Shown in pieces: positions 2,388-35,475 of a stretch of 35,790 nt of DNA (positions are counted from its first letter, which is position 1; the number at the start of each line of letters is the position of its first letter). The notes under the pieces were generated by a model. It was not told the origin of the DNA, ran no database searches, and saw only the letters and a program-made list of their open reading frames with translations. The stretch comes from Polyangiaceae bacterium (GTDB taxonomy: Bacteria; Myxococcota_A; Polyangia; Polyangiales; Polyangiaceae), in assembly GCA_020849655.1 (NCBI GenBank), contig JADLFU010000272.1, positions 1-35,790 of the forward strand, given 5' to 3'. A program made the position numbers and the translations under genes.

Positions 2388-3713
2388 GTGCGCCGCCGTC
2401 GCCTCCTCCTCGCTTCGCTCTCGATCGCCGTCGCCTCGGCCTGCGCGTCCGAGTCCTCCGACGGCCCCACCACCGCCACCGGCACGCCGCCGGGCGCGTC
2501 CGCCGCGGGGACGCCGCTGCCGTGCGACGTGTCCCTCGCGCTGACGCGCTGCCACGACTGCCACTCTTCGCCCACGAAGTACGGCGCCCCGATGTCGCTC
2601 GTCACCTACGAAGACCTGGTGCGCGACGCGCCGTCGACGCCCGGAGTCTCGACGCTGCAGCGGGCGCTCGAGCGCATGAAGAGCACGACCGATCCGATGC
2701 CGCCCGTGCCGCGCGAGCGCGCGAGCTTCAAGGAGTACGGCCCGCTCGACGCGTGGCTCGAGCGAGGGTTCCCGCCCGGCGACGCGGCCGAGAAGTGCGC
2801 GCCCGCGGCGCCGGACGCCGGCGTGGTGACCCCGGCGTGCGAGCCCGATCTGGTCGTGCGCGCCGAGTCCGCGTACTCGCTCCCGGAGGGCACGGCGGAC
2901 GTCTACGTCTGCTACGGCCTCGACGTGCCGGCGACCGCCGGCAAGCGCCAGGTGACGGCCATCGCGCCGCGCGTCGACGACACAGCCGTCGTGCACCACA
3001 TCGTCGTGTTCCAGGCCGACAAGACCGAGAGCCCCAAGCCTCACAAGTGCAAGGACATCTTCCCGATCGACTGGAAGGCCATCTACGCGTGGGCGCCGGG
3101 CGGACCGCCGTTCGTGATGCCCGAGGAGGCGGGGCTGCCGATGCAGGAGGGCGGGCCGACGCACCTGGTCGTGCAGGTCCACTACAGCAACCTGAAGCAC
3201 GAGGCCGGGCACGTCGACCGGACGGGCGTCGATCTCTGCACGACCGACGCGCCGCGCAAGTACGACGCCGACATCCTGTGGGTCGGGGGGTTCGACTTCG
3301 CCGTGCCGCCGCACAAGACGGCCACGGTCGAGTGCAAGTTCGACTGGGGCCAGAACTGGACCAAGTACCTGCCGCTCCAGGTCGTGCAGTCGTGGCCCCA
3401 CATGCACCAGCTCGGGCGCAAGCTGACGACGGACCTCGTGCGCGCCGACGGCTCGCAGACGCCGCTCGGGCACGCCGATCCGTTCTCCTTCTTCGATCAG
3501 GCGGCGTACCCGGTCGACGTCACCGTCTCGAACGGCGACAAGTTCGTCACGCGCTGCACCTGGGAGAACACGACCGACAAGACGGTCACCTGGGGAGAGG
3601 AGACGAGCCAGGAGATGTGCTTCAACCTGCTCACGTACTACCCGCGCATCCCGCTGCCGCAGTTCAGCGGCCCGGCGGCGTCGTACCTCTCGGACTGCAA
3701 GATGCAGCCATGA
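2388..3713 (+). CDS. Lipoprotein with CxxCH motif and copper type II ascorbate-dependent monooxygenase-like fold
   Basis: 441 residues from a GTG at 2388. A basic N-terminus and hydrophobic core precede Cys19 (AVASAC), so it is probably lipidated. Residues 55-59 are CHDCH, a c-type haem attachment motif within a short cytochrome-like segment. Residues ~150-430 match the peptidylglycine alpha-hydroxylating/dopamine beta-monooxygenase fold, and all six copper ligands are recognisable: His203-His204 (VVHHIVVF) and His265 (VQVHYSN) for CuH; His338 and His340 (PHMHQLG) and Met410 (SQEMCFN) for CuM. A cupredoxin-type oxygenase with a covalently attached haem as electron donor is a reasonable inference; the substrate is unknown. 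The 3' end overlaps the next start (ATGA), so the two are translationally coupled. Confidence 0.85.
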   Translation: MRRRRLLLASLSIAVASACASESSDGPTTATGTPPGASAAGTPLPCDVSLALTRCHDCHSSPTKYGAPMSLVTYEDLVRDAPSTPGVSTLQRALERMKSTTDPMPPVPRERASFKEYGPLDAWLERGFPPGDAAEKCAPAAPDAGVVTPACEPDLVVRAESAYSLPEGTADVYVCYGLDVPATAGKRQVTAIAPRVDDTAVVHHIVVFQADKTESPKPHKCKDIFPIDWKAIYAWAPGGPPFVMPEEAGLPMQEGGPTHLVVQVHYSNLKHEAGHVDRTGVDLCTTDAPRKYDADILWVGGFDFAVPPHKTATVECKFDWGQNWTKYLPLQVVQSWPHMHQLGRKLTTDLVRADGSQTPLGHADPFSFFDQAAYPVDVTVSNGDKFVTRCTWENTTDKTVTWGEETSQEMCFNLLTYYPRIPLPQFSGPAASYLSDCKMQP

Positions 3714-8193: not shown

Positions 8194-9765
8194 TCAGAAC
8201 GCGATCTGACCGCGCAGCGTCAGCTCGTGCAGGCTGTGGGCGCCGTTGTGGCACGCGGTGTTCGGGCCGACGTCGACCCTGCGCGTCGGGCACCCGAGGT
8301 TGCCGGGCGCGAGGGCCGAGTTGTCGCCGGTGTACGAGCCCGGGAGCATCACGTAGCCGTACCCGAGCGAGAGCGACGCGTGGTGGGTCGCGTAGTAGTT
8401 GACCCCCGCGCCGACGACGTCGACCGCGACGCGCTGATCGGGGCGCGCGTCGCCCGGCGCGGACGCGCGATCACCCGCAGAGTACGTCGCGCGCAGCGAC
8501 TCGCCGCGCAGCACGATCTCGAGCCCGCGGGGGGCCTTCTGCGGGTGGCCCTTCGGGAACCCGATGTGCGGCGGCGCGAAGCGGCCCGGCGCCTGTCGCA
8601 GGCTGGGGCGCCCCATCAGGAACACGCCGAGCTGCGCGTAGAACGCCGTGCCGGAGAGGTGACCGAAGCGCTCGCTCGTCGCCGCCTCGAGCCCGGCCTG
8701 TGCCTCGCGCGTGTTGCGCCGCAAGGACACGAACTCGAGCCTGAAATCGAGCCGCGAGACCGGCACGCGCACCTCGCCGGCGAACGCGGTGTCGAGCCCC
8801 GACGGCAGGATGTTCACCGTGCGACCGTCCGGCCCGCGGTAGCTGGTGGCGAAGAGCGTGGTGCCGCCGTCGGTGGTGATCGGCGCGAGCGGGTAGTGCA
8901 CGTCGCGCTTCCTGCGCATCCCGTACCGCACCGACGCGCCGATCTGGATGTCGCGCGCGATGGTGCCCGTCGTCGCGAGCGGGCGCGCGTAGACGCGGGC
9001 GACGCCGTCCACGCGCGCGTCGACGTTGGCGCGCACCGGGCCGCGCTCCTGGTTCGCGTCGCCGCCGAACGCGCCCGCCTCGTACGCGAACACGCCGCCG
9101 CGCGTGCGCCCCGAGGCCATCAGCCCGAGGTCCTTGTTCGACGGCTGGGCGAACCGGACGGCGAGCGGGCGCTCGAGCCACATCATCTGCGACTCGTCGG
9201 TGCGGTTCTCCATCGTGAAGGGCACCTGCTGCTGCCCGAGCGAGAGCGACAGCCACCGCGCGACGCGCACCTGGAGGAAGCCGTGCTCGAGGTGGGGCGT
9301 CGGGCCCGCGAGATCGCCCGAGAGGAAGAACGACCAGCGCGACAGGATCTCGCCGCCGAGATCGACGCGCGCCCGGCGCATCGTCATCTGCGGGCGCAGC
9401 GGATCGCCCGCGGGGCCCGTCACGTCGTCGACGCCGCGCCCGAGCGTCGCGCGCGTGTCGACCTGCATCAGCAGCCCGGGGTACAGGCGGAACTGATCGT
9501 GATCGTCCCGCAGGAAGAAGCGCCCGCCGTGGTACCCCGCGAGCGGGAACCCCTCGGGGCCCCTCGACGAGGGGCGACGGGTCTCCTCGAGCTCGTCGGC
9601 GCTGCGGGGCGGACGCGTCCGCACGCGCGACCGGAGGAGCGCGCGGCCCCGCGGGGGCGCGACGACGGGGGCGACGACCGGCGGTTCGTCGTCCGCCTGC
9701 GCCGTCGCCGGCGTGACGAGCGCGGCCGCAGCGGCGCACGGCGCGAGCCAACGGGAGATCGCCAT
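8194..9765 (-). CDS. Phosphate-selective porin O/P-type outer-membrane beta-barrel protein
   Basis: 523 residues. A Sec signal peptide (MAISRWLAPCAAAAALVTPA, cleavage near TAQA/DD) and a proline/arginine-rich spacer precede a barrel region with alternating polar/hydrophobic strands. The order FRLYPGLLMQVDTRATLG, then MRRARVDLGGEILSRWSFFL, then VRVARWLSLSLGQQQVPF and ENRTDESQMMWLER is the recognisable head of the OprP/OprO family (RRARxxLxG, GQxKxPFxxE). The final strand ends LTLRGQIAF, with the terminal Phe typical of BAM substrates. Selectivity for phosphate or polyphosphate is assumed from the family name only. It sits 13 bp after the DUF72 gene and 10 bp before the UbiA-family gene. Confidence 0.82.
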   Translation of the reverse strand: MAISRWLAPCAAAAALVTPATAQADDEPPVVAPVVAPPRGRALLRSRVRTRPPRSADELEETRRPSSRGPEGFPLAGYHGGRFFLRDDHDQFRLYPGLLMQVDTRATLGRGVDDVTGPAGDPLRPQMTMRRARVDLGGEILSRWSFFLSGDLAGPTPHLEHGFLQVRVARWLSLSLGQQQVPFTMENRTDESQMMWLERPLAVRFAQPSNKDLGLMASGRTRGGVFAYEAGAFGGDANQERGPVRANVDARVDGVARVYARPLATTGTIARDIQIGASVRYGMRRKRDVHYPLAPITTDGGTTLFATSYRGPDGRTVNILPSGLDTAFAGEVRVPVSRLDFRLEFVSLRRNTREAQAGLEAATSERFGHLSGTAFYAQLGVFLMGRPSLRQAPGRFAPPHIGFPKGHPQKAPRGLEIVLRGESLRATYSAGDRASAPGDARPDQRVAVDVVGAGVNYYATHHASLSLGYGYVMLPGSYTGDNSALAPGNLGCPTRRVDVGPNTACHNGAHSLHELTLRGQIAF

Positions 9766-32362: not shown

Positions 32363-33283
32363 ATGTCGAGCGCTCACCTGAACAAAGCCCACGTCATCCT
32401 CTCCCGCCACCTCGCCCGCACGCTGGTCGTCGCGGCGGGCGTCGCCGCGCTCGCGGGCTGCGGAGGCAACCCGCGCGAGTCCCCGAGAGATCTGTCGGCG
32501 TCGAGCGAGCCCGCCGTCGAGGCCGCGGCGGTCGAGGTGCCGGCCGACGACATCGAGGTGGAGGATCGGCCCGAGCGCGCCCCGGCGCCGCGGGTGCTCG
32601 CCCTCGTGCGTGAGCTCGATCTGCGAGACGATCAGCGCGCGGCCGTCGACGCGATCGAGCGGCGCCTCGTGGACGGCGCGGAGCCCGCGAAGGGCTCCGT
32701 CCGCGCGCTCGCGGGCCTGCTCGCCGACGGCCTCGCGCATGGCCGCGTGGACGAGGCCGCCGTCGCGGCGAAGCGCGCGCGGCTCGAGTCGGATCTCCGC
32801 GCGGCGCGGGCGGCGTTCGTCGCGTCCGCGAACGAGCTCCACGCGACGCTCGACGCCGATCAGCGCCTGGAGCTCGTGCTGTCGCTCCGCGCGCGCCGCG
32901 CCGGGGAGCCCACGCCGCGTGAGGCGCGGGACGCCGACGTCACGCACGTCCACGGAGAGCGGCGCATCGTCGAGGAGCTCGGCCTCACGCGCGAGCAGCG
33001 GGACGCCCTGCGCGACGGCGCGCGCGCCATCGTCGACGCCGCCTTCCCCGACAGGAGGGCGCGGCGCGAGCGCGCGGTGGCCGAGCGCGAGGCCGCCCTC
33101 GACGCGTTCGTGTCCGAGACGTTCGACGCGGCCGCGTACTCGTTCGGGGAGCAGGCCGCGGGGACGCTCACGAGGGCGACGGGAGGCGCGGCGCAGCTGA
33201 CCGAGCTCGCCGCGAAGGTGCTGACGCAGAGCCAGCGCGAGCAGCTCGCGGCAAGGATGCGAGAGGTGTCCGCGCGGCGGTGA
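32363..33283 (+). CDS. Spy/CpxP-like periplasmic lipoprotein (LTxxQ-type)
   Basis: 306 residues from the ATG at 32363. The signal sequence is LVVAAGVAALAGC, with the lipidated Cys at about residue 33. The rest is almost entirely helical and highly charged, with repeated helix-turn blocks that include LDLRDDQRAAVDAI, LDADQRLELVLSL, LGLTREQRDALRDG and LTQSQREQLAARM. The LTxxQ-type motifs are those of the Spy/CpxP/ZraP group of periplasmic chaperones and metal-stress proteins. Chaperone or sensor-modulating function is an inference from that motif. It precedes the LemA gene by 33 bp on the same strand, so it may be part of the same unit. Confidence 0.7.
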   Translation: MSSAHLNKAHVILSRHLARTLVVAAGVAALAGCGGNPRESPRDLSASSEPAVEAAAVEVPADDIEVEDRPERAPAPRVLALVRELDLRDDQRAAVDAIERRLVDGAEPAKGSVRALAGLLADGLAHGRVDEAAVAAKRARLESDLRAARAAFVASANELHATLDADQRLELVLSLRARRAGEPTPREARDADVTHVHGERRIVEELGLTREQRDALRDGARAIVDAAFPDRRARRERAVAEREAALDAFVSETFDAAAYSFGEQAAGTLTRATGGAAQLTELAAKVLTQSQREQLAARMREVSARR

Positions 33284-33316
33284 GCTCGCCCCTTGGCGGC
33301 CCGGCCGCGACGACAC

Positions 33317-33967
33317 ATGTTGCGCGCCATGATCCAGACGCTCCGTGGCCTCGCCGTGCGCCTCGCGCTCGGCGGAGCGCCCGCCGCCGCCCTCCCCCTC
33401 ACCCTCGCCGCCGCCGCCGTGGCGCTCCCCGGCTGCCAGAAGTACGACCAGCTCATCGAGGCCGACGCGACGGCCGATCAGCGCTGGGCCAACGTCGAGG
33501 CGCAGCTGCAGCGCCGCTACGATCTCGTGCCCAACCTCGTCTCCACCGTGAAGGCGTCGGCGAAGCACGAGCAGGAGACGCTGACGAAGGTGATGGAAGC
33601 GCGCGCCGCGGCCACGCAGCTCAAGCTCTCCGCCGACGATCTCTCCGATCCCGCGAAGGTCGCCGCGTTCCAGAAGGCGCAGGACAACCTGAAGGGCTCG
33701 CTGTCGCGCCTGCTCGTCGCGCAGGAGGCGTACCCGGAGCTCAAGGCGAACCAGGGCTACCGCGACCTGCAGACCCAGCTCGAGGGCACCGAGAACCGCA
33801 TCCTGCGCGCGCGCGAGGAGTACAACGCCGCGGTCAAGACGTTCAACGCGGAGCTCGGCAAGGTCGGCGGACAGGTGGTCAACAAGGTCACCGGCAAGCC
33901 CTTCAAGCCGCGCGTGTACTTCAGCGCGTCGACCGAGGCCCAGGCCGCGCCGAAGGTCAGCTTCTGA
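33317..33967 (+). CDS. LemA family lipoprotein
   Basis: 216 residues from the ATG at 33317 (an ATG at 33329 is also possible). The signal peptide ends in a lipobox (VALPGC), so it is lipid-anchored. The family's core is plain: YDQLIEADATADQRWANVEA, QLQRRYDLVPNLVSTVKASA (the conserved QLQRRxDLIPNLVxTVKG block), AQDNLKGSLSRLLVAQEAYP, LQTQLEGTENRILRAREEYN and the closing VNKVTGKPFKPRVYF (family: FP...F...YF). LemA proteins form long helical bundles at membranes and very commonly stand next to a TPM-domain (YgcG-like) gene, as here. The stop TGA overlaps the proposed CTG start of that gene. Confidence 0.95.
   Translation: MLRAMIQTLRGLAVRLALGGAPAAALPLTLAAAAVALPGCQKYDQLIEADATADQRWANVEAQLQRRYDLVPNLVSTVKASAKHEQETLTKVMEARAAATQLKLSADDLSDPAKVAAFQKAQDNLKGSLSRLLVAQEAYPELKANQGYRDLQTQLEGTENRILRAREEYNAAVKTFNAELGKVGGQVVNKVTGKPFKPRVYFSASTEAQAAPKVSF
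33952..33956 (+). promoter_or_regulatory. Shine-Dalgarno-like GAAGG before a proposed CTG start
   Basis: gaagg ends 7 nt before the CTG at 33964, an ordinary Shine-Dalgarno spacing, within the last codons of the LemA gene. It supports initiation at or next to that codon. Confidence 0.45.
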
Positions 33968-34761
33968 TCGCGCTCACGTCACTCGCGGGCGGGCGCGCGC
34001 GGGGCGGGCTCCTGTGGTCGTTTGTCGCGCTCGCGCTCGCGTGGATAGCGCTCTGGTCGGCGCCCCTGTGGGCAGAGGGCGCCGCGCTGCCGCGGCTCGA
34101 GGGCTACGTCGTCGACGCGACGGGGCAGCTCACCGCGGCGGAGGTGCGCGCGCTCGACGACAAGCTCGACGCGGCCCGCAGGCGCACGGGCTTCTCCGTC
34201 GTCGCGTACGCGACGCCGAGCCTCCGCGGCGAGCCGATCGAGGATCTCGCGTACCGCGCGTTCAACACGTGGGGCGTCGGCGCGAAGGGCGCCGACACGG
34301 GCGTCTTGCTCGTCATCGCGACCGGCGAGCGGAAGATCCGCATGGAGACTGGCAAGGGCGTCGGCGGCGCGCTGACGGACGTGCAGTCCGCCCGCATCAT
34401 CCGCGAGATCATCGCGCCGCGCATGAGCCAGGGCCGCCTGCGCGACGCCGTCGACGCCGGCACCGACGCGATCCTCCGCGAGCTCATCGCGGGCAGCACG
34501 CCCGAGGAGCGCGCGGCCGCGAGCAAGCGGCCCCCGCCGCCCCGGGCAGCGCCTGCGTCACGCGTGTCGCCGCTCGCCGCGGCGGCCGGCGTCGTGCTGG
34601 TGCTCGTGCTGCTCGTCGTCAGCCCGACGTTCCGCCAGATCTTCTTCTTCTTCCTGTTCTTCGGCCGCGGGGGAGGTGGTGGCGGTGGCGGTGGTGGCGG
34701 CCGGGGCAGCGGCGGTGGCGGCGGATCGTCGGGCGGAGGAGGCGCGTCGGGGGACTACTGA
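33964..34761 (+). CDS. TPM-domain (YgcG-like) membrane protein, probable CTG start
   Basis: About 265 residues. The reading frame has no ATG, GTG or TTG between the LemA gene end and the domain; the only sensible start is a CTG at 33964 overlapping the LemA stop (CTGA), 7 nt after GAAGG. Translation then gives a signal peptide (LLIALTSL...LLWSFVALALAWIALWSAPL), followed by the TPM domain: VVDATGQLTAAEVRALDDKL, AFNTWGVGAKGADTGVLLVI, IRMETGKGVGGALTDVQSAR and RMSQGRLRDAVDAGTDAI. A second membrane helix (VLVLVLLVVSPTFRQIFFFF) and a glycine-rich tail end the protein, as usual in this family. It is probably the partner of LemA in the inner membrane. Its last 204 bp overlap a gene on the other strand. 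Confidence 0.82.
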   Translation: MIALTSLAGGRARGGLLWSFVALALAWIALWSAPLWAEGAALPRLEGYVVDATGQLTAAEVRALDDKLDAARRRTGFSVVAYATPSLRGEPIEDLAYRAFNTWGVGAKGADTGVLLVIATGERKIRMETGKGVGGALTDVQSARIIREIIAPRMSQGRLRDAVDAGTDAILRELIAGSTPEERAAASKRPPPPRAAPASRVSPLAAAAGVVLVLVLLVVSPTFRQIFFFFLFFGRGGGGGGGGGGGRGSGGGGGSSGGGGASGDY

Positions 34762-35398: not shown

Positions 35399-35475
35399 GG
35401 GCTGATAGCTCAGTTGGTCAGAGCTGCGGACTTTTAATCCGTAGGTCCCGGGTTCGAGTCCCGGTCGGCCCACCA
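35399..35475 (+). tRNA. tRNA-Lys (anticodon UUU)
   Basis: 77 nt with encoded CCA. The acceptor stem gggctga/tcggccc pairs fully (one G-U), the D arm contains agctcagttggtcagagc, and the anticodon arm is gcgga-cttttaa-tccgt, giving anticodon TTT for lysine. The T arm reads ccggg-ttcgagt-cccgg, with discriminator A before CCA. Lys tRNAs of this kind read AAA and AAG. Confidence 0.98.

Follow-up and report, generated by a model that had tools for sequence, protein, structure and literature searches.

The LemA–TPM locus

The stretch of DNA analysed here, hereafter the window, comprises 35,790 nt from an uncultured member of the Myxococcota, a Polyangiaceae bacterium, and contains the start region of a gene for a TPM-domain protein. 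The gene immediately upstream encodes LemA and lies on the forward strand at 33317..33967. Its open reading frame runs from ATG 33317 or ATG 33329 to the TGA at 33965-33967 and matches PF04011 in a Pfam profile search (E 3.5e-50). The N-terminus of LemA contains a lipobox, LPGC (33425-33436, cysteine codon 33434-33436), from which the protein is probably a lipoprotein. Its C-terminus is APKVSF*, the 3' end of the gene reading GCG CCG AAG GTC AGC TTC TGA TCGCGC, and the assembled sequence at the junction with the TPM gene is TTCTGATC.

The TPM gene is read from the same strand in the -1 frame relative to LemA. Counted from a CTG at 33964, it would occupy 33964..34761 (265 codons and a stop) and begin with a predicted Sec-type signal peptide of 37 residues, (M)IALTSLAGGRARGGLLWSFVALALAWIALWSAPLWA (33964..34074, forward strand), with cleavage expected, by eye, before Glu-Gly-Ala-Ala. 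The TPM domain follows at 34108..34476 on the forward strand (PF04536, TPM_phosphatase; E 5.2e-33, 114 bits against a cut-off of 22.1 in the Pfam profile search), and the protein ends with a hydrophobic segment and a Gly-rich tail. A tRNA-Lys gene (anticodon ttt) is present at 35399-35475.

Several forward-strand features bear on the position of the start. The likeliest start codon, as judged from the coding onset and the orthologues, is CTG 33964..33966, which together with the LemA stop forms the 4-nt overlap CTGA. The adjacent ATC (33967..33969) is a rival near-cognate start at the site where many relatives carry the ATG of a TGATG junction, and a second CTG (34012..34014), aligned with a GTG in the sister genome G001, is a less likely alternative. 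A weak Shine-Dalgarno (SD)-like motif, GAAGG (33952..33956), is encoded by the Pro-Lys-Val codons of LemA and lies 7 nt from CTG 33964 and 10 nt from ATC 33967. In a preliminary description of this DNA the overlap with TGA and the 7-nt spacing of GAAGG had been recorded, together with ATGA and GTGA junctions elsewhere in the window; the sequence agrees on the former, and the latter are found in frame at 3710 and 4330 (ATGA) and 17532 (GTGA).

Absence of a canonical start codon

Downstream of the LemA stop, a scan of the TPM frame found the first canonical codon (ATG, GTG or TTG) at GTG 34144, which bears out the earlier statement that none lies between this stop and the TPM domain. Further canonical codons follow in this frame at TTG 34306, ATG 34342 and beyond. 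Because the TPM domain begins at 34108, GTG 34144 is of no use for the signal peptide, and a start there would leave out this peptide as well as 12 residues at the beginning of the domain. The nearest upstream canonical codon in the frame is GTG 33280, which precedes LemA and itself sits in a GTGA overlap with the gene upstream. It opens a reading frame of 493 amino acids (33280-34761) that crosses LemA in the -1 frame and extends into TPM, and that a gene caller might wrongly select.

That the TPM frame is open throughout LemA would also suit programmed -1 ribosomal frameshifting to a LemA–TPM fusion protein, the alternative raised in the preliminary description. An open -1 frame is, however, trivial here, because its codons begin with the LemA wobble bases and 95.6% of third positions are G or C. 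In one genome (G019, locus L013, contig C432) both genes are read as a single frame, TTC TTA GCG replacing the stop, which represents either a natural fusion or an indel error of the metagenome-assembled genome (MAG). Against frameshifting, neither an X XXY YYZ heptamer nor another re-pairing slip was seen by eye in GCG CCG AAG GTC AGC TTC TGA, the F-stop end of LemA is conserved, and fusion to a periplasmic LemA lipoprotein would be expected to misplace the TPM domain across the membrane. We regard this alternative as very improbable.

The CTGA overlap and the GAAGG motif had been offered as signs of initiation. Both are present, but they are weak evidence for it because they are by-products of the LemA protein sequence. 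In relatives the C-terminus of LemA is nearly always PKV[ST]F* or PEVKF*; the Lys-Val codons generate GAAGG or AAGG, and TTC TGA generates CTGA regardless of the downstream gene. Among 967 TGA-ending genes of this genome, the base before the stop is C in 400 and G in 396. The duplex energy of GAAGG (-3.3 kcal/mol) leaves CTG 33964 below the strength of typical junctions, the medians being -5.8 for GTGA, -4.15 for ATGA and -2.4 for C-TGA stops generally. These energies assume the standard anti-SD sequence, since a pattern search of this genome did not find the 16S 3' end; rRNA is frequently absent from MAGs.

Junctions of this kind are rare in the genome. Across 1.50 Mb, 6 of 562 adjacent same-strand pairs have no canonical start near the coding onset, and three of these six are CTGA junctions, one of them within a broken gene. 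This is a TrkA-type potassium channel gene (L170:8282-9373, contig C60 of G000, the window's genome) whose TrkA_N domain is split between frames at 8888, by a MAG indel or a real break, and which was rejected as a false positive. With three of 562 pairs, one of them broken, there is no statistical enrichment of CTGA starts genome-wide. In this genome no more than about 0.5% of pairs can have CTG starts, consistent with the known rarity of such starts.

Coding signal and selection

Comparison within the genus relied on G001, the independent MAG KLAP97 (locus L032) and the sole same-genus genome compared, in which TPM is 81% identical. When codon usage was modelled from 0.96-1.50 Mb of G000, the best coding onset of TPM fell exactly at 33964; immediately upstream, the frame scored -22. 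For codons 0-16 the score is +5.4 in G000 and +7.4 in G001, compared with a mean of 5.9 for true N-termini at 4-nt overlaps (n=205); among intergenic windows matched for GC content, only 5.1% and 2.6%, respectively, attain such scores. Differences between the two genomes within the TPM domain are distributed 15/5/40 over codon positions 1/2/3. The domain is thus under purifying selection, and the gene is clearly functional, not a relic. In the first 17 codons the corresponding differences are 5/6/7, with 1 synonymous and 9 nonsynonymous codons, so that they show no purifying selection against G001 and lend no positive support to a start there. Unconstrained divergence is common in the n-regions of signal peptides.

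This apparently neutral divergence of codons 1-17 is one reason to consider CTG 34012, at codon 17, as the start, the preceding 48 nt then being an untranslated spacer. The G001 junction reads CTG ACC, a CTGA without ATG, followed 48 nt downstream of the CTG by a GTG, to which CTG 34012 of the window aligns; a G-rich SD-like stretch (-6.5 kcal/mol) also accompanies CTG 34012. Yet the window would still require a CTG start, codons 0-16 look coding by codon usage in both genomes, and the GTG of G001 has a poor SD (-2.6 kcal/mol). Both genus members retain the positive n-region RAR; it precedes CTG 34012, and a start at this codon would leave the signal peptide without it, with a net charge of 0 instead of +2. 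Moreover, no indel occurs across 51 nt at the TPM start although 18/51 bases differ; synteny with G001 spans only 3.2 kb, too short for an estimate of the indel rate. A start at CTG 34012 appears quite improbable.

LemA–TPM junctions in related genomes

An assembly or sequencing error could in principle conceal an ordinary start codon, and the TrkA gene (L170:8888) shows at least one place in the assembly where the reading frame is probably in error or genuinely broken. An isolated base error is nevertheless very unlikely because ATG is absent at the junction in both genus members, the sister MAG included. Four other genera likewise have CTG-only junctions. We give this explanation hardly any credence.

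A strict-profile table of junctions missed distant pairs, and the counts given here come from a wider survey, which comprised 67 distinct LemA–TPM junctions. In 31 of them LemA ends in TGA and TPM lies in the same frame as in the window. TGATG accounts for 13 of these 31 and CTGA with a later canonical start for nine; in five more the CTGA is not followed by any canonical start ahead of the hydrophobic core, three have TTGA and one has GTGA. A fourth TTGA case (L292, from G278), lying on a short stretch, scored below the survey cut and is left out of the count of three. Among the nine CTGA pairs with a later start, L061 also has stops in frame, so that the gene there really begins at the later ATG.

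The orthologues, those of other families included, differ in the codon that occupies the position of CTG 33964, the point at which the preliminary description had proposed to check its reading. TTG is found exactly there in a Kofleriaceae MAG (L071/L280), where it is the sole canonical start, the next in-frame canonical codon being at +102, as well as in G278 (L292), G096 (L311) and G264 (L297), and GTG is found there in L057. In all four cases with TTG the last Phe codon of LemA is TTT, which suggests that the wobble base of this codon determines whether TTG or CTG results.

The five CTG-only pairs are those of the window, of G137 (same family, other genus) and of G172, G281 and G282 (other families); the last four span three families and represent four genera besides that of the window. 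In each of these four a complete signal peptide starts directly at the CTG: LRLFFCFAWLFGAWLLLLPASAFA in G137, LIRARPSALFLVGALLAAAAARA in G172, LISRALLVVAALAWLAAPARA in G281 and LIRNSALAIALLAGSLAHA in G282.

In the commonest class, the junction TTC TGA TG reads CTG ATG in the TPM frame, the ATG overlapping the LemA stop by one base; examples are L004, L005, L007, L011 and L024 in the same family, and L052, L059 and L060 in Myxococcaceae and Pyxidicoccus. The window has ATC at this site, one base away from TGATG. Its start might accordingly be ATC 33967, an ancestral ATG mutated at the third base (to ATT in G172) and retained as a weak re-initiation start. The codon after CTG is ATC or ATT in 4/5 CTG-only pairs. 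The corresponding figures are 0/9 where CTGA precedes a later canonical start (Fisher p 0.005) and 13.5% for CTGA stops across this genome (p 0.0015, from genome base frequencies), and compared with random loss of ATG the p value is 0.010. These counts are small, and phylogenetic inertia, TGAT being a remnant of TGATG, explains part of the enrichment. ATC is also the next codon in the TTG-only orthologue L071, and its 10-nt spacing from the SD-like motif equals that of the ATG in TGATG relatives. On the other hand, the TTG and GTG orthologues show use of the codon before the ATC site, and this site is occupied by ACC in G001 and by AGA in G137, whose junction, CTG AGA, leaves no ATC to start from. 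A start at ATC is judged unlikely, though it is the main rival to CTG 33964. Between the products of CTG 33964 and ATC 33967 the difference would be a single residue, lost when the signal peptide is cleaved off.

A second pair in the same genome

The other intact CTGA junction without a canonical start lies at L141:14680 on the minus strand (contig C37 of G000). It belongs to a pair (L141:13313-14932, minus strand) consisting of an 83-aa protein ending in YAES* and a lipoprotein with a Big_5 domain. The pair is conserved in Polyangiaceae, with orthologous loci L185-L249, in which the upstream protein ends in YAES* or YSDS*. Among 45 Polyangiaceae junctions the lipobox of the Big_5 lipoprotein lies in the -1 frame wherever it is recognised, and 27/45 have no ATG, GTG or TTG from 120 nt upstream to the lipobox.

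A junction CTG start for all Big_5 pairs was ruled out. In several genomes a mere 11-14 codons separate the junction from the lipobox cysteine, and in L212, L238 and L241 the stop is TAG, so that the junction contains no XTG (that of L238 is GTAG); L238 has no canonical start at all. The Big_5 lipoprotein may begin at an upstream CTG or arise by frameshift fusion, and the pair may be more unusual than LemA–TPM.

Proposed start and mechanism

Comparison places the start of the TPM gene, on present sequence evidence, at the LemA junction, where no canonical start is available and where orthologues have TTG or GTG. That the gene starts at the junction CTG had already been put forward in the preliminary description; the proposal now draws support from the TTG and GTG orthologues, four further CTG-only pairs, G001 and the coding onset. 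We consider it probable that coupled re-initiation at CTG 33964 starts the gene. A ribosome would end LemA at TGA 33965 and, assisted by the GAAGG inside LemA, re-initiate with fMet-tRNA at the overlapping near-cognate CTG 33964 (CTGA, 4-nt overlap). The product would consist of the 37-residue Sec signal peptide, the TPM domain, the C-terminal hydrophobic segment and the Gly-rich tail. As LemA ends TTY TGA, the wobble base of Phe would set the start, TTT yielding TTG and TTC yielding CTG, and in high-GC genomes, which favour TTC, CTG starts would result.

Overlapping stop/start pairs couple translation in the bacteria tested (PMC6728339). Here too the proposed start overlaps the upstream stop, and the LemA–TPM partnership is conserved across the 67 distinct junctions. 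We infer that TPM translation is coupled to LemA by termination-reinitiation and that CTG is used rather than the adjacent ATC. In E. coli, CUG gives 0.86% of the yield of AUG, and its share among initiation codons in bacteria is 0.024% (cited in PMC11497404); protein yield from the TPM gene would likewise be low, as for other CUG starts. Reconstructed switches from AUG to CUG starts are very rare (2/61,358; PMC5622118). Sequence context alone is no proof of use, because a CUG start of Caulobacter dnaA, seen in vitro by toeprinting, is unused in vivo (PMC8443254).

Significance and comparison with known systems

Gene callers normally accept ATG, GTG and TTG only. Genes with CTG-only starts would be expected to lose their signal peptide or to vanish in annotation, and genes of this kind are probably mis-annotated. 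The LemA–TPM junction offers natural variants of one site across related genomes (TGATG, GTGA, TTGA, CTGA and TGATC), so that one could measure directly how strong near-cognate starts are when translation is coupled, and it suggests an origin for CTG starts in the wobble base of an upstream codon under GC pressure. It is conceivable, if somewhat doubtful, that near-cognate starts (CUG or tandem CUG-AUC) at stop-overlapping junctions constitute a recurrent functional class in Myxococcota, set by the wobble base and driven by GC content from TTG to CTG, whose N-termini gene callers systematically miss. The LemA–TPM pair would exemplify this class in five genera, and the Big_5 pair is without any canonical start in 27/45 Polyangiaceae junctions.

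The protein itself resembles other TPM-domain proteins (PF04536; solved relatives 7tbr, 5anp and 2kw7) in its signal peptide, C-terminal hydrophobic segment, Gly-rich tail and adjoining LemA gene; the start codon alone is unusual. With ATGA and TGATG pairs (PMC6728339) the junction shares the geometry of the stop/start overlap, an SD-like motif inside the upstream gene and a conserved operon partner. It differs from them in that the start is a near-cognate CTG (or ATC) and that coupling is deduced; CTGA goes unmentioned in that study.

A canonical start is also missing from sigR of Streptomyces, likewise a high-GC bacterium, which starts at GTC (PMC5472188). This near-cognate codon limits the yield and is sensed by IF3, and the junction of the sigR-rsrA operon overlaps (PMC5472188). 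The sigR case demonstrates that a non-canonical start can be functional and regulatory (PMC5472188). In the sigR-rsrA operon, however, the first gene carries the odd start, which mutation has proved, whereas that of TPM is on the downstream gene and is supported by comparison only.

A literature search for CTG starts in Myxococcus yielded no paper. Rare CUG starts described in bacteria (PMC11497404, PMC5622118) are comparable to that of TPM in codon and in low frequency; the LemA–TPM site differs in that its codon follows the upstream wobble base, several lineages having CTG and others TTG. CTG starts themselves are known but rare, and a recurrent CTG start set by a wobble base is a modest novelty beside them.
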